NCBI GenBank assembly: GCA_017645945.1
Contig: JAGCNL010000016.1
Coordinates: 1 to 64,000 of the forward strand
Direction: 5' to 3'
Origin: Salinivirgaceae bacterium
GTDB lineage: Bacteria; Bacteroidota; Bacteroidia; Bacteroidales; SZUA-534
DNA: 64,000 nucleotides
This document shows positions 30,371 to 49,063 of this stretch, in pieces. The notes beneath the pieces are model-generated. The model was not told where the DNA came from. It saw only the letters and a program-made list of their open reading frames with translations, and did no database searches. A program made the position numbers and the translations under genes. Numbering within the stretch: the stretch's first letter is position 1; every line of letters starts with the position of its first letter.

Positions 30371-33300
30371 ATGAAACGCATTGTCACACTGTTTTTTGCC
30401 GCAATGCTTGCAGGGCAGGCTATAGCCGAAGACAAATTTGATTTTTCAGCCGTTTGTAGCACAGGGCAAACCTTGTACTACAAAATAAAAAATGATACTG
30501 TTCAACCTTACACAGTGCAAATAACGTATCCGTCAGACCCTGGGGCTACAAATGATCATTATATAGGTCATATCAAACCAAATGGGGATTTGAACATACC
30601 AGAGTTAATCACTAACGAAGGAATAAACTATTCAATAACAAGCATTGGCGAAAGAGCATTCTTTGACTGCGACGAACTAACGTCTGTAACTATTCCGAAA
30701 TCTGTCACGAGCATTGGTACGCAAGCATTCCTTGGTTGTGTTAAGTTGTTGGCAATAAACGTTGCGGATGATAATCAAATTTACACATCAATAGATGGTG
30801 TGCTCTTTAATAAAGATAAAACTAAACTGATATGCTTCTCCTACGGAAAAACTGGTTCATATACCATACCAAATACCGTAAAAACCATACAACCTTGGGC
30901 GTTCGAAAATTGTGGTTTGGAATCAATAACCATTCCAAACTCTGTCACAAACATCGGTAAATCTGCATTTTGTAAATGCGTCAATTTAACTTCAATAAAC
31001 TTTCCCACTTCCGTTAAATCCATTTATGAATATACATTTTATGGATGTAGTAAATTAACAATCACAATTCCCGAAGGAGTTACAAGTATTGCTGATAACG
31101 CATTTAACCTGGTGAAAAACGTAAATTACACGGGCAGTGCCAGTGGAAAACCTTGGAGAGCCCTAACGGTTAATGGCACTATTGATGGAGACTTTATATA
31201 TGCTGATGCTGAAAAGACGCGACTTACAGCATACAAAGGAGAAGGAGGAGATGTAACCATCCCAAATTCTGTGACAAGCATCGGGAATTATGTATTCATG
31301 AATTGTTTAAACCTGTCAGCAATTAATATTCCAAATTCTGTGACAAGCATCGGGAATTATGTATTCATGAATTGTTTAAACCTGTCAGCAATTAATATTC
31401 CAAATTCTGTAACAAGCATTGGAACTTATGCGTTCGAGAATTGCTATCGAGTATCAATAACCATCCCGAGTACGGTTACGAGCATCGGCGATTATGCGTT
31501 CTGGAACGTAAAAAACATAAATTATTCTGGTGAAGCAACTGGTAGTCCATGGGGGGCTATCAACATTAATGCAGTAACAGGAGAGAATGGGTTCTTATTT
31601 AAAGATGCGGAAAGAACTCAAATTGCCGCATACATTGGTGAAAATAGCGAAATAACTATTCCTGATTCCATAACAAGTATTGGCACGAACGCATTTTCAC
31701 ATTGTACAAGACTTACTTCAATTGTAATTCCTAATTCTGTTACAAGCATCGGCTCGTCAGCATTTTATGGGTGCACAGAACTTACTTCGGTTATAATCCC
31801 TAATTCAGTTAAATCTATTAATTTATCCACCTTTGGCGGTTGCAGCAAACTCATAGTTGCCATTCCTAACTCAGTCAAATCTATTATAGATAATTCATTC
31901 GAAAATTGCCATTCGGTTATCGTTTCTAACTCTGAAATTGGTCTGTATGCATTTAGAGGGGTTGACAAAGTGTTTTATTTAGGTACATCCGCAGGCATGA
32001 ATTCTGGATGGAATAGGTATGTCAAATCGTTATCAAACTATAGTAGTGAATTGTGTTTCGAAGTAGATAGGAACAATCCTAACGAGGCAATAATTACTAA
32101 ATATGAAGGCACAGACGATGTGGTTGTAATTCCGCCAACAGCAACTATCGACAATAAAAAATACACTGTAACATCAATTAGCGAGAGCGCCTTCAGCAGT
32201 TGCTGGGAACTGAAAGCGGTTTACCTGCCAAACACCATTACAAGTGTCGCTCCGTCGTCGTTCTCTGGCTGCTACAAATTGCAGTACAACACTTTCGACA
32301 ACGCCCTTTATGTTGGCTCTCAAGACAATCCTTATTATGCACTCATCAAAGCCCAAGACAAAAACATAACCTCGTGCCAGATACACAGCGATTGTAAGGT
32401 AATTGCAAGTTTTGCGTTTGAAAACTGCGAGGCTCTGACCAGCATAACAATTCCCGATTCGGTAACGCATATAGGCCGTATGGCATTCAGCAATTGTTCG
32501 GCGATTGAGAATGCTGTTGTGGGCAAATCGATTGTCGAGATAGGGAATTGGGCTTTCGAAAATTGCCAAAAACTCAAAACCGTATCCATACCAACAAGTA
32601 TCAAGAGTATAGGTTACGGGGTGTTCTACGGTTGCGACAAACTGCAATATAACACCTTCGATAATGCTCTCTATCTGGGCAACGACGTTAACAAGTACGT
32701 TGTGCTGATGATGCCGAAAGCAGATGACATCCAGCAATGTATGATAAGCGATAGTTGCCAAATAATCTACGAAAGCGCTTTTCTCAATTGCGCATCGCTC
32801 GATTCGGTATCAATTCCAAATTCTGTTTGGAGCATCGGAAGCAATGCATTCAGCAACACTGCTTTGCGCTCGGTTGTGCTTCCTGATTCGCTCCGAACAA
32901 TTGAAGCGGGACTGTTTAACGAGTGCACAAAACTCACATCGGTTACTATCCCAAATTCAGTAACAACAATTGGCATCAATGCTTTTTATTGGTGCGAGAA
33001 CCTAAAAACGGTTGCTCTGCCCAATGGGCTCACGCAGATAGGCGGCAGCGCCTTCAACTATTGTCTTGGTTTGGATTCCATACTGATACCAATGTCTGTC
33101 GATTCGATAGGAAATGCTGCATTCTTCCGCTGCAACAAGGCCACAATATATTGCGAGGCCGACAGCAAGCCTGCCCACTGGGATGAAGATTGGAATAAAA
33201 ATGGAGGAACGGTGGTATTGAAATACTGTGGAAATGGCAATAATGCCCATACTTCAGTTACAGATGCTGCCGTTGCCGCAACCTGCACAGAGTCAGGCTT

Positions 33301-33844
33301 AACCGAAGGCTCGCATTGCTCGGTTTGCGGTGTAGTCTTAGTTGAGCAAGACACAATTCCAGCCAAAGGCCATACCATTGTTATTGACGAAGCGGTTGAG
33401 CCAACCTGTACCGAGACTGGGTTGGGAGAGGGCAAGCATTGCGCCGTCTGCGACGAATACGATTGGACACAAGAACTACTGCCGCCATTGGGCCACGAGT
33501 TTGTAAACTACGTTTATAACAACGACGCCACCACCGAAGCCGATGGCACCGAGACTGCTGTCTGCGAGCGCGGCTGTGGCGCAACTGATACACGCACTGC
33601 TGAAGGCACACGATTGTCAACATCCGTTTCAGAATCCGCTGCAAACAATTTGATGGTTTACGCCCACGGCAACACCATCATTGTTGAAAACGCCGCAGAA
33701 GAAATCAGCGTATATGATGCAATGGGTCGCCTTATTGGTAGGGACGCGATTAATCGCGTCCGTACAGAAATCCGCGTCAACACCGCAGGTCTTTACTTTG
33801 TGAAGGTTGGCAATGTGGCGAAACGTGTGATGGTGAATGATTGA
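30371..33844 (+). CDS. BspA-like leucine-rich-repeat surface protein with T9SS sorting tail
   Basis: The 1157-residue protein has a signal peptide (IVTLFFAAMLAGQAIAE). Residues ~75-940 are LRR_5/BspA-type repeats of 23 residues with the core ITIPNSVTSIGxxAFxxC, interrupted by spacer modules beginning LQYNTFDNALY. Residues ~955-1080 hold Cys-rich repeats (C-T-E-x-G-L...H-C-x-V-C, then CERGCGATDT). The last ~75 residues are a type A T9SS domain (NTIIVENAAEEISVYDAMGR ... GLYFVKVGNVAKRVMV). BspA proteins bind host proteins or other bacteria; the target here is unknown. Odd points are an exact 69-bp duplication at 31262-31399 and a palindromic element translated inside the tail (33738-33765). Confidence 0.93.
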   Translation: MKRIVTLFFAAMLAGQAIAEDKFDFSAVCSTGQTLYYKIKNDTVQPYTVQITYPSDPGATNDHYIGHIKPNGDLNIPELITNEGINYSITSIGERAFFDCDELTSVTIPKSVTSIGTQAFLGCVKLLAINVADDNQIYTSIDGVLFNKDKTKLICFSYGKTGSYTIPNTVKTIQPWAFENCGLESITIPNSVTNIGKSAFCKCVNLTSINFPTSVKSIYEYTFYGCSKLTITIPEGVTSIADNAFNLVKNVNYTGSASGKPWRALTVNGTIDGDFIYADAEKTRLTAYKGEGGDVTIPNSVTSIGNYVFMNCLNLSAINIPNSVTSIGNYVFMNCLNLSAINIPNSVTSIGTYAFENCYRVSITIPSTVTSIGDYAFWNVKNINYSGEATGSPWGAININAVTGENGFLFKDAERTQIAAYIGENSEITIPDSITSIGTNAFSHCTRLTSIVIPNSVTSIGSSAFYGCTELTSVIIPNSVKSINLSTFGGCSKLIVAIPNSVKSIIDNSFENCHSVIVSNSEIGLYAFRGVDKVFYLGTSAGMNSGWNRYVKSLSNYSSELCFEVDRNNPNEAIITKYEGTDDVVVIPPTATIDNKKYTVTSISESAFSSCWELKAVYLPNTITSVAPSSFSGCYKLQYNTFDNALYVGSQDNPYYALIKAQDKNITSCQIHSDCKVIASFAFENCEALTSITIPDSVTHIGRMAFSNCSAIENAVVGKSIVEIGNWAFENCQKLKTVSIPTSIKSIGYGVFYGCDKLQYNTFDNALYLGNDVNKYVVLMMPKADDIQQCMISDSCQIIYESAFLNCASLDSVSIPNSVWSIGSNAFSNTALRSVVLPDSLRTIEAGLFNECTKLTSVTIPNSVTTIGINAFYWCENLKTVALPNGLTQIGGSAFNYCLGLDSILIPMSVDSIGNAAFFRCNKATIYCEADSKPAHWDEDWNKNGGTVVLKYCGNGNNAHTSVTDAAVAATCTESGLTEGSHCSVCGVVLVEQDTIPAKGHTIVIDEAVEPTCTETGLGEGKHCAVCDEYDWTQELLPPLGHEFVNYVYNNDATTEADGTETAVCERGCGATDTRTAEGTRLSTSVSESAANNLMVYAHGNTIIVENAAEEISVYDAMGRLIGRDAINRVRTEIRVNTAGLYFVKVGNVAKRVMVND
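31262..31399 (+). repeat. Exact 69-bp tandem duplication (one LRR unit, two copies)
   Basis: 31262-31330 and 31331-31399 are identical base for base and encode two copies of the same 23-residue LRR, containing NSVTSIGNYVFMNCLNLSA. Neighbouring repeats share the motif but differ at many bases, so this duplication is recent. Confidence 0.95.
33738..33765. repeat. Palindromic element inside the BspA-like coding sequence
   Basis: This 28-bp inverted repeat has arms GTAGGGACGCGATT and AATCGCGTCCGTAC with one mismatch. It is read in frame as part of the sorting domain, giving GRDAINRVRT between AMGRLI and the EIRVNTAGLYFV strand. The homologous position in the second BspA-like protein lacks it. 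The same element, with one change in each arm, lies downstream of the second gene at 49091. Confidence 0.85.
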
Positions 33845-45877: not shown

Positions 45878-45944
45878 GTTCTCGATAAAGCAGTTCCTAT
45901 TCCTTCTCAAAAAAAACATTTTTCCATTTCAACCTACTTTTTAT

Positions 45945-45952
45945 ACCTTTGT
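45945..45952 (+). promoter_or_regulatory. -7 element for the second BspA-like gene
   Basis: TACCTTTG is a full TAnnTTTG match. The next plus-strand start codon with a signal peptide is at 46310, so it implies an untranslated leader of about 350 bases. The -33 region is only T-rich. Confidence 0.45.
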
Positions 45953-46309
45953 CTTGCTCTGCGTTTTGTCTCGCAAGAGGTTGAATGTTGAGTGACATAT
46001 TAGAAAGACGTTTACTGACGTTTTCCTTTGACACTTCGAAATCTCGCAAATTTTGAATCATCGTCAAAGAAAAAGCAGCGGTGAACGCCTGCGTAGGTAT
46101 GCGGTGTATTGTCATAGGCGTTAGTGAATGGCATCCCCATATCAACGTGGGTATTCGCGTTGCTCAATCTTACGATGATGGGCAATGCGAGAGCCTCGAA
46201 GTGTGGGAGCGAGTAACAAGATTCCCACGTTTTTCTGTTTATATAGGTACCGCAATCGGGGAGTCGGCGGACAGAGGTTGCGCACGACACGGAGGCAGTG
46301 TATATGGTT
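45953..46309 (+). other. Long putative 5' leader with alternative hairpins
   Basis: This is the largest gene-free stretch in the window (with its flanks, 45818-46309). It is richer in G+C than other spacers. AACGTGGG (46144-46151) can pair with CCCACGTT (46224-46231), while GTGGGA (46203-46208) pairs with TCCCAC (46223-46228), followed by GTTTTT. The two pairings share a strand and exclude each other, as in attenuators. Smaller hairpins CCT-GCGT-AGG (near 46089) and CGAG-AGC-CTCG (near 46190) also occur. Open frames exist on both strands here but lack signal sequences, codon character or family resemblance, so I treat the region as noncoding. Confidence 0.45.
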
Positions 46310-49063
46310 ATGAAAAAGTTATTATTAATTCTTGCTACGATGCTTGCTGGACAGGCGTGGGCTTGGGATTTTGAATGTGATGGTTTGAGATACTCAATTA
46401 ATACACCTTCTGATGGAGAAAACCATATTGTTTCAGTAGCCAAAGGTTTAACTTCCCCAACAGGAGACTTTGTAATTCCGTCTGAAGTTACTTACCCTGA
46501 AACTGATGGTGTAACTTATTCAGTAACCAGCATCGGGGACCGTGCGTTTTCTGAATGTAGAGGTTTGACAACGATAACTATTCCTGAATCAATAACCAGT
46601 ATCGGCAATGCAGCATTCGTCAATTGTCACGATTTGACATTGGTAATCATTCCCAATTCTGTAACTTGCATCGGTAGTCAAGCGTTCCAAAATTGTAACA
46701 ATCTGACTTCGGTAACCATTCCAGAATCAGTAATCAGCATTGGCGAGTACGCATTCATGGGGTGTGATAACTTAACTAAAGCTGAATTCGTCAACATTGC
46801 GAGTTTGTGCAAAATGCAATTTGACGGTGTCTATGCTAATCCTGTATTGTGTACTCACCATTTATTTGTTGATGGTAAGGAAATAACAGATGTTGTTATT
46901 CCTGATTCAATAACGAGTATTGGTAACTATTCATTCTGTGGTTGCAACGATCTGGCATCGGTATCCATTCCGGAATCTGTAACCAGCATCGGTGACTATG
47001 CGTTCTCTGATTGCAGAGGTCTAACATCGGTAAATATTCCCGAAACAATAAAGAGTATTGGCAACTATGCGTTCTCTGGTTGTAGTAGCTTGATATCGAT
47101 AACTATTCCTAGAGCAATAACTTGCATTAGAGATGGTACGTTCTCAGGTTGCTGTGACCTAACATCAGCAACAATTCCAGAATCAGTAACCAGCATTGGC
47201 GAGTATGCGTTCCGAGATTGCAGCAGCTTGGCATTAATAACCATTCCAGAATCAGTAATAGAATTGAGTGGCTACGCATTTTCTGGTTGTAGCAGTTTGC
47301 AATACAACGAATATGATAATGCACTTTATTTGGGAAATGATGGAAATCCTTATTTGCTACTGATCAAGGCTAAATCAACAGATATTACATCGTGCGTGAT
47401 AAGCAACAGTTGCAAGTTTTTTAACTCTACCGCGTTCAACAATTGTAGCCACCTAACTTCTGTTACTATTAGTAATTCAGAGACAGAAATAATAGGATGG
47501 GATGCGTTCGCTGGTTGTAGCAGTTTGCAGTACAACGAATACAACAATGCACTTTATTTGGGAAATGATGAAAATCCTCATTTGATGCTGATAAAAGCCA
47601 AATCGACAGATATAACATCGTGCGAAATAAGTAACAGTTGCAAACTCGTTTACAAACTGGCATTCTGTTATTGCAGCAGTTTGACATCTATAACCATTCC
47701 TAATTCGGTAACCAGTATTGGCGATATGGCTTTCTATGAATGTAGAGGTCTGACTTCAGTAACTATTGGTAATTCCGTAACCAAGATAGGCAAGGAAGCA
47801 TTCAATTTTTGCAGCGGCCTGACATCGATATCCATTCCTGAATCAGTAACCTGGATTGGCGACTATGCGTTCTATAATTGCAGAAGCTTGCCAACAATAA
47901 CTATACCTAATTCTGTAAAGAACATTGGAGTGCATATGTTTGGAAATTGTTACAGTTTGACGTCTATAACACTACATGATTCACTAATCAGTATTAGTGA
48001 TGGAGCTTTCATGTTTTGCCGTAGTCTGACTTCAGTTTCCATTCCTGAATCTGTAGTCAGCATTGGTACGGGTGCGTTTGCATGGTGTGATGTTTTAAAA
48101 AAAGCGGAATTCGCCAACATTGCGAGTTTGTGTAAAATACACTTTGGCGACAGAAGTGCCAATCCTTTGTTTTCTGCTCACCACTTATATGTTGATGGTG
48201 AGGAAATCACAAAGGTCTTTATTCCCGATTCAGTAACGAGTATTGGCGATTATGCATTCTCTGATTGCAGCGGTCTTACATCAGTGTCCATTCCAAATTC
48301 TGTAACGAGCATTGGGGAAGAAGCTTTTTATGGTTGCAGCGCTTTGACATCAGTAACCATACCAAATTCAGTAACATATATTGGTAATGCGTTTGGAGAA
48401 TGTGAACAATTATATTGTGAAGCAGAAAGCAAGCCAAATACTTGGAAAAAAGATTGGAATTACGACAACAGACCTGTTGTATGGGGCTGTAAGTCAATAA
48501 AAATAGAGATCAATGACTTGGAATTAGGAAGTGTGCAAACCAATCCTGTTTGTGGAATTGGTATCAACGGAACCTTATGGTATACAGAGGGGGCAACAGT
48601 AGAACTCACAGCAACACCCAAAAAGGGATATCATGTAAAATGGGAAAATGGCAGTTATGAAAATAATCGTACAATAACTGTTGCTGAAGGTTCTGTTTAT
48701 TCTGCAACATTTGAGAAACATACATTTTCGAACTACATCTATAACAATGATGCCACCACCGAAGCCGATGGTACAGAAACCGCTGTTTGTGAGCGCGGCT
48801 GCGGCGCAAATGACACACGAGTAAAAGAAGGAACAAAACTGCCAAAGGACAACACAGCTGTTAACGAATCTGCCGTTAACGCCATTAACATTTACGCTAT
48901 CGGAAGCACCATTGTCGTTGAGAACGCCACCGAAGAAATCTTTGTTTACAATGCAATGGGTGCTTTGGTCGGCCGCACGGAAACAACGACAATAACCGTC
49001 AACGGCGCAGGCGTTTACATTGTAAAAACTAGCGGCACAGTTAAACGTGTTATGGTGAATTAA
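46310..49063 (+). CDS. BspA-like leucine-rich-repeat surface protein with T9SS sorting tail (second copy)
   Basis: The 917-residue protein has a signal peptide (KLLLILATMLAGQAWA, near-identical in style to the first BspA-like protein). LRR_5 repeats with VTIPNSVTSIGxxAFxxC fill residues ~60-700, interrupted by spacers starting LQYNEYDNALYLGND and by two copies of a module with HHL(F/Y)VDG(K/E)EIT. An InlB/Listeria-Bacteroides-like repeat (ATVELTATPKKGYHVKWENG) follows, then the Cys module CERGCGANDT shared with the first protein, and a type A T9SS tail (NATEEIFVYNAMGALVGRTE ... GVYIVKTSGTVKRVMVN). It is probably a surface adhesin; the ligand is unknown. ATG at 46310 is preferred over 46298. 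Confidence 0.92.
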   Translation: MKKLLLILATMLAGQAWAWDFECDGLRYSINTPSDGENHIVSVAKGLTSPTGDFVIPSEVTYPETDGVTYSVTSIGDRAFSECRGLTTITIPESITSIGNAAFVNCHDLTLVIIPNSVTCIGSQAFQNCNNLTSVTIPESVISIGEYAFMGCDNLTKAEFVNIASLCKMQFDGVYANPVLCTHHLFVDGKEITDVVIPDSITSIGNYSFCGCNDLASVSIPESVTSIGDYAFSDCRGLTSVNIPETIKSIGNYAFSGCSSLISITIPRAITCIRDGTFSGCCDLTSATIPESVTSIGEYAFRDCSSLALITIPESVIELSGYAFSGCSSLQYNEYDNALYLGNDGNPYLLLIKAKSTDITSCVISNSCKFFNSTAFNNCSHLTSVTISNSETEIIGWDAFAGCSSLQYNEYNNALYLGNDENPHLMLIKAKSTDITSCEISNSCKLVYKLAFCYCSSLTSITIPNSVTSIGDMAFYECRGLTSVTIGNSVTKIGKEAFNFCSGLTSISIPESVTWIGDYAFYNCRSLPTITIPNSVKNIGVHMFGNCYSLTSITLHDSLISISDGAFMFCRSLTSVSIPESVVSIGTGAFAWCDVLKKAEFANIASLCKIHFGDRSANPLFSAHHLYVDGEEITKVFIPDSVTSIGDYAFSDCSGLTSVSIPNSVTSIGEEAFYGCSALTSVTIPNSVTYIGNAFGECEQLYCEAESKPNTWKKDWNYDNRPVVWGCKSIKIEINDLELGSVQTNPVCGIGINGTLWYTEGATVELTATPKKGYHVKWENGSYENNRTITVAEGSVYSATFEKHTFSNYIYNNDATTEADGTETAVCERGCGANDTRVKEGTKLPKDNTAVNESAVNAINIYAIGSTIVVENATEEIFVYNAMGALVGRTETTTITVNGAGVYIVKTSGTVKRVMVN
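47285..47645 (+). repeat. Diverged direct repeat within the second BspA-like gene
   Basis: About 130 bases from 47285 recur from 47513 (offset 228, 76 codons) with scattered differences. Each unit encodes CSSLQYNEYxNALYLGND, then LIKAKSTDITSC and SNSCK. The encoded module is a non-LRR spacer also present twice, more diverged, in the first BspA-like protein. Confidence 0.8.

Follow-up and report, generated by a model that had tools for sequence, protein, structure and literature searches.

The leader of the BspA-type adhesin gene at 46310..49063 belongs to a family of structured RNAs that recurs in the order Bacteroidales, folds as one long rod and carries strands under selection for mutually exclusive pairings. 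It is probably a cis-acting switch of the termination type, in which the rod and a terminator would form exclusive global folds. The leader was found in the window, that is the whole stretch of 64,000 nucleotides that was analysed (Salinivirgaceae bacterium, contig JAGCNL010000016.1), and all features given below for this copy lie on the forward strand. An earlier note on this DNA had described a promoter, two alternative stems and a terminator-like hairpin ahead of the gene and had compared them to the arrangement of attenuators and riboswitches.

The gene encodes a protein with a signal peptide and an LRR_5 match within its first 420 residues (E-value 3.5e-86), with an ATG start codon at either 46304 or 46310. 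Approximately 355 bases 5' of these codons lies TACCTTTG (45944-45951), in agreement with the -7 promoter match that had been placed about 350 bases before the signal-peptide ATG. The consensus of the Bacteroidetes -7 promoter is TAnnTTTG, and we take TACCTTTG to be an element of this type. Folding gives a hairpin of variable type adjoining the promoter (45950-45997), and both this hairpin and the promoter differ in other members of the family. These are followed by hairpin P1 (46005-46024, pairing 46005-46012 with 46017-46024), which is seen in prefix folds and in the swap test described below, and by hairpin P2 (46021-46074, with arms 46021-46032 and 46063-46074), a competitor of the rod which is also supported by the swap test. 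The middle rod (46031-46204) is identified by pair counts and by a match of 144.8 bits at 46030-46204 to R1, a covariance model of the middle rod, and is made up of 46031-46039 with 46196-46204, 46042-46048 with 46186-46192, 46057-46070 with 46168-46179 and 46075-46094 with 46145-46163.

At the apex of the rod is the strand alpha' (46144-46154), which is common to the rod and the terminator. Within the rod, 46145-46151 of alpha' pair with alpha (46088-46094). Outside it, 46144-46151 (AACGTGGG) is the exact complement of 46224-46231 (8 pairs), and 46144-46154 with 46221-46231 is the same helix extended with one mismatch. The second of these strands, t' (46221-46231), has as its other possible partner t (46201-46208), the 5' arm of a local terminator-like hairpin in which 46203-46208 pair with 46223-46228 across a 14-base loop, followed by a run of five T (46230-46234). 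Both helices (8 and 6 pairs) and the T-run had been reported in these places to within a base or two. Of the antiterminator/terminator arrangement that had been proposed, the terminator-like end and the exclusive stems were borne out, but the role of antiterminator given to the 8-pair helix was not. Both of the pairings named there are terminator-like, as they end at the same T-run; the helix of 46144-46154 with 46221-46231 would more plausibly serve as a second terminator stem acting at long range, and the better candidate for the antiterminator would be the rod, with alpha' held by alpha. A mechanical terminator scan did not list the local hairpin at 46203-46228 and gave another, weaker site instead, since the 14-base loop exceeds the limit of 8 used by the scan.

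The core of this copy (45991-46236) folds as a single long rod at -96.2 kcal/mol, compared to a mean of -63.3 for dinucleotide shuffles (z -7.66, with 0 of 200 shuffles reaching it). With nested folding, the rod is favoured by 18.5 kcal/mol over the fold containing alpha':t', and the local hairpin can form alongside the rod core (-91.3 versus -96.2 kcal/mol), so that the OFF fold could arise only kinetically.

A DNA search found the leader to be repeated within the window's own genome and present in 10 of the 11 genomes of its genus. From this search 39 places were fetched and 38 aligned, with L082 dropped as its 3' half is missing. Matches to R1, whose E-values are rough, occurred in 11 of 20 genomes of the family (2 of 7 genera) and in 43 of 295 sampled genomes of the order (28 of 183 genera), and the only R1 matches in a phylum sample of 395 were in the window's own genome and in a second genome of the order, with none outside the order. 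A degenerate pattern made from two conserved strands was present in at least 119 stretches in named genomes. Among the 80 matches listed, nearly all titles name Bacteroidales or Bacteroidia taxa, including Prevotella, Segatella copri, Bacteroides and Muribaculaceae, and two are titled as bins of Firmicutes or Lachnospiraceae and may have been misbinned. Five viral contigs also hold the pattern, and R1 gave a sense match in 81 of these 85 sequences (the 80 listed stretches and the five viral contigs). Contigs classed as viral carry the leader at L295, L296, L298 and L299, the last of which has no T-run pattern, alpha':t' pairing or downstream ORF.

Two larger sets were compared. The first consists of 83 distinct leaders, these being what is left of 96 rows after removal of seven on the opposite strand, three without the T-run pattern and three duplicates; L080 is absent from the source list of these rows, and the same place lies inside L122 and is counted there. 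The second set was found with the degenerate pattern and holds 71 leaders, from 82 rows less four that are partial or on the opposite strand, one that is short and six without the T-run pattern.

RNAalifold analysis of the 38 aligned leaders gives one long rod, with 92.5% of rod cells paired and 36 of 78 pairs changed on both sides. None of 500 shuffles reached any of five rod measures, and pairing fell to 37-51% when partners were slid by 1-3 columns. For the 83 leaders, aligned with R1 and hence with a bias towards the rod to which that alignment is fitted, 91.3% of 4551 rod cells pair (shuffle mean 69.3, maximum of 200 shuffles 70.3), and both-sided changes affect 1057 cells (at most 357 in the shuffles) and are present in 56 of 58 rod pairs. 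Chance folding is ruled out by the covariation in the 38 and the 83 leaders. The unpaired bases of two internal loops of the rod (within 46040..46195) are nearly invariant, being conserved in 83 of 83 rows for A46040 and C46195, in 82 for G46181, in 78 each for G46182 and C46194, and in 76 for A46041.

Covariation also bears on the possibility that the leader is a mobile palindromic repeat (MITE-like) with no regulatory role. The leader occurs several times in a genome, with as many as 12 matches in G002, it is near-palindromic with seven weak opposite-strand matches, and the pattern occurs on the five viral contigs, all of which would be in keeping with such an element. It is nevertheless very improbable, given that divergent copies covary throughout, that copies lie in one orientation 5' of genes, and that blastn of the leader gave no match in 50,697 phage or 72,556 plasmid records.

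The exclusive pairings were assessed with a swap test, in which a strand is matched by duplex energy to its own partner or to that of another locus without the use of base-pair columns; strand windows came from the alignment or from motifs, and 5000 permutations were made in which relatedness among leaders is ignored. Duplex energy was also preferred for alpha':t', as a per-column count anchored on the T-run suffered register slips. In the 83 leaders, none of the 5000 permutations matched the own partners for P1, P2, the rod helices h3, h6 and h7 (h7 being alpha:alpha'), P4, t:t' or alpha':t', and the result was again 0 of 5000 for each of these in 44 representatives sharing less than 62% identity. 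The own-partner mean for alpha':t' was -15.44 kcal/mol in the 83 leaders, compared to -13.36 (sd 0.22) for permuted partners and -7.50 for a shuffled t'; in these energies the alpha' window was misplaced for L132 and L138, for which separate values of -15.6 and -8.6 were obtained. Among the pattern-found leaders P1, P2 (n = 69), h3, t:t' and alpha':t' (n = 71 for the latter two) likewise gave 0 of 5000. The two mutually exclusive pairings of t' named in the earlier note are kept beyond chance, and compensatory changes in homologous leaders, which the earlier note had set as its own test, are present in the 38-leader, 83-leader and pattern-found sets.

In the 38 leaders, alpha is paired with alpha' in 237 of 263 cells, alpha' with t' in 256 of 266, and t in 217 of 222. 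The best rod partner of t' is alpha' in 81/83 and 69/71 leaders of the two sets. The alpha':t' helix is mostly Watson-Crick, with G-U pairs making up 32 of 469, compared to 131 of 445 core pairs in alpha:alpha', and it is the stronger of the two in 63 of 82 leaders, as would be expected for strand displacement. The alpha' core has 44 changed cells, and in 32 of these pairing with either partner is retained, in some through a shift of register. Alpha':t' is also the more widely kept of the two pairings originally named: the local hairpin is weaker than -5 kcal/mol in 13 of the 83 and 4 of the 71 leaders, and in leaders of methyltransferase and DndC genes (L126, L128, L135, L136) it is weak while alpha':t' extends over 12-13 consecutive pairs. 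Support is weakest for the rod base, the helix that would conceal t' in the ON state, with 0/5000 in the 83 leaders, 149/5000 in the 44 representatives, 1908/5000 in 32 divergent leaders and 38/5000 in the pattern-found set. A scheme in which the rod base arises by zipping of P1 onto the terminator hairpin and is the main switch was weakened, as the rod base fails or barely passes once relatives are thinned.

A TAnnTTTG element is found 5' of the leader in 68/83 and 57/71 cases, and after the T-run in just 4/83 and 3/71. The T-run pattern directly follows t' in 86/89 and 71/77 leaders. In the first set an ATG-initiated ORF of at least 100 residues starts no more than 250 bases past the T-run in 64 of 78 cases versus 11 of 78 on the mirror side, with a median distance from T-run to ATG of 75 bases; for the second set such an ORF follows in 47 of 59, versus 10 on the mirror side. 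Promoter, leader and gene lie on one strand at a fixed spacing, and of the exclusive helices under selection one abuts the T-run, as in an attenuator.

Nine leaders are without the T-run pattern, and as eight of these keep alpha':t', this helix may have another role. A switch of translation or RNA stability with the same fold family and an incidental T-run would accommodate these leaders, as it would the start codon close behind L199, and is quite improbable in view of the T-run standing directly after t' in nearly all others. The same eight leaders, the very strong conservation of the rod itself and the several copies per genome would also suit a structural or trans-acting small RNA of approximately 290 nt with its own terminator, which genes follow by chance and in which alpha':t' is part of the mature fold or a folding intermediate and not a switch. 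Such an RNA is rather unlikely in view of the fixed orientation and the median of 75 bases to the ATG; moreover, a promoter element is very rarely present between T-run and gene (4/83), so the downstream genes seem to be dependent on readthrough.

For the favoured switch between rod and terminator, the following course of events is proposed. The leader would be transcribed from the promoter together with the downstream gene, its 5' half folding during synthesis into the local hairpins P1 and P2, and the emerging 3' half would zip onto the 5' half to give the long rod capped by alpha:alpha'. Alternatively, t' would capture alpha', or in many members the nearby t, and the resulting stem abutting the T-run would end transcription 5' of the gene. 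From this we infer that the rod is the ON and the terminator the OFF state. The balance could be tipped by the speed of transcription, or by a factor (small molecule, protein or RNA) that acts near the conserved internal loops, and the two loops with their conserved unpaired bases would be the likeliest place of recognition for a candidate ligand or protein.

NusG paralogues are used on long leaders in Bacteroides, and together with the nearly invariant loop bases this would fit a rod that is a binding site for a protein or polymerase and modifies elongation, like put, EAR, LoaP or UpxY, without exclusive pairing. This is unlikely, as selection on alternative exclusive pairings is not required by such a mechanism. 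A tentative but realistic possibility is that the leaders form an order-wide class of signal-sensing RNAs in the Bacteroidales, possibly a rod-sensor riboswitch, in which the two loops with nearly invariant bases would contain the recognition site and the expression of accessory genes (adhesins, DNA methyltransferases, phosphorothioation and tellurite-type genes, and small HTH-like regulators) would be set by strand displacement between rod and terminator. To our knowledge, few cis-regulatory RNAs have been characterised in Bacteroidales. Should the leaders act as proposed, many accessory genes of gut Bacteroidales would be under one unrecognised RNA control element. This could account for many adhesin and defence-type genes being expressed conditionally and could point to a new ligand or RNA-binding regulator.

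The genes that follow the leader are mixed. A specific tie to BspA adhesins was rejected as a general rule, with a BspA repeat present in 16 of 82 downstream proteins and 1 of 65 in the second set; no leader match was found upstream of the other BspA gene of the window (30371-33844), which has a similar signal peptide. Leader-linked products include lipoproteins, T9SS-tailed proteins, protein kinases, TerD, TerB, DUF2971 and an Hsp70-TPR protein, as well as type III, II and IIG methyltransferases, DndC and an MkoA-like protein as clear single cases. LytTR proteins are downstream in 3 of 65 cases of the second set. An enrichment of secreted proteins was not shown (42/82 by a crude signal heuristic; 25/65 in the second set versus 96/258 other long ORFs of the same loci), and none is claimed for defence genes, which were seen as single cases; no theme was shown to be enriched. 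The leader is often followed by a small HTH-like protein (68-84 residues, judged by eye) with an MHIGxxI-like start, as at L058, L059, L060, L065, L073, L124, L125, L133, L134, L193, L198 and L215, and an NCBIfam scan of four of these proteins gave no match above the curated cut-off. In one instance, tandem leaders (L122:148-341 and L122:701-877) precede a TerD gene, with no ORF of at least 55 residues directly after the first.

Like terminating riboswitches and attenuators, the family has a 5' leader with an early promoter element, covariation in both helices and a strand common to an internal helix and a stem abutting a T-run. It differs in that no known class matches, in that the sensor would be a single rod with two strongly conserved internal loops, and in that its terminator stem may be long-range. 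No conserved short reading frame for a leader peptide was apparent by eye in the alignments of the 38 leaders. Leaders under UpxY/LoaP-type processive antitermination, of which UpxY is that of Bacteroides, are likewise long and controlled by termination; however, these systems need a dedicated NusG-like protein, whereas the conserved feature of the Bacteroidales leader is exclusive pairing.

That no known class could be recognised agrees with Rfam 15, in which neither the window nor 20 chosen order-level loci had a match at gathering scores, and nothing overlapping the leader at an E-value of 1 in 11 chosen loci. Structured-RNA candidates from the human microbiome include palindromic ones, mostly from Bacteroidetes, as well as leader candidates (PMC8040213). 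One palindromic candidate is HMP2_4205, of 132 bp and near TPR genes, and no 230-base leader of the present kind is described in the portions of that study that were covered (PMC8040213). Fragments of the family may be among its candidate lists. An attenuator-type leader is of a known kind; the present family, with its rod architecture and its distribution, had no counterpart in Rfam 15, and no description of the rod leader was found in the portions of the open-licence literature that were covered (PMC7366714 and PMC8040213 included).

Two minor features lie between the T-run and the gene. By eye, a small hairpin is present 3' of the T-run (46250-46270) with the loop GGGGAGTC, complementary to part of t', and such a hairpin is found in most adhesin leaders with the loop GGGGAGTC, GGGAATC or GGGAACC (L079). 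Just 5' of the start codon there is a conserved stretch around GCGCACGACACGGANGCAGTGTATA (46273-46312), which is also matched in six genomes with no leader match nearby (L139-L144).
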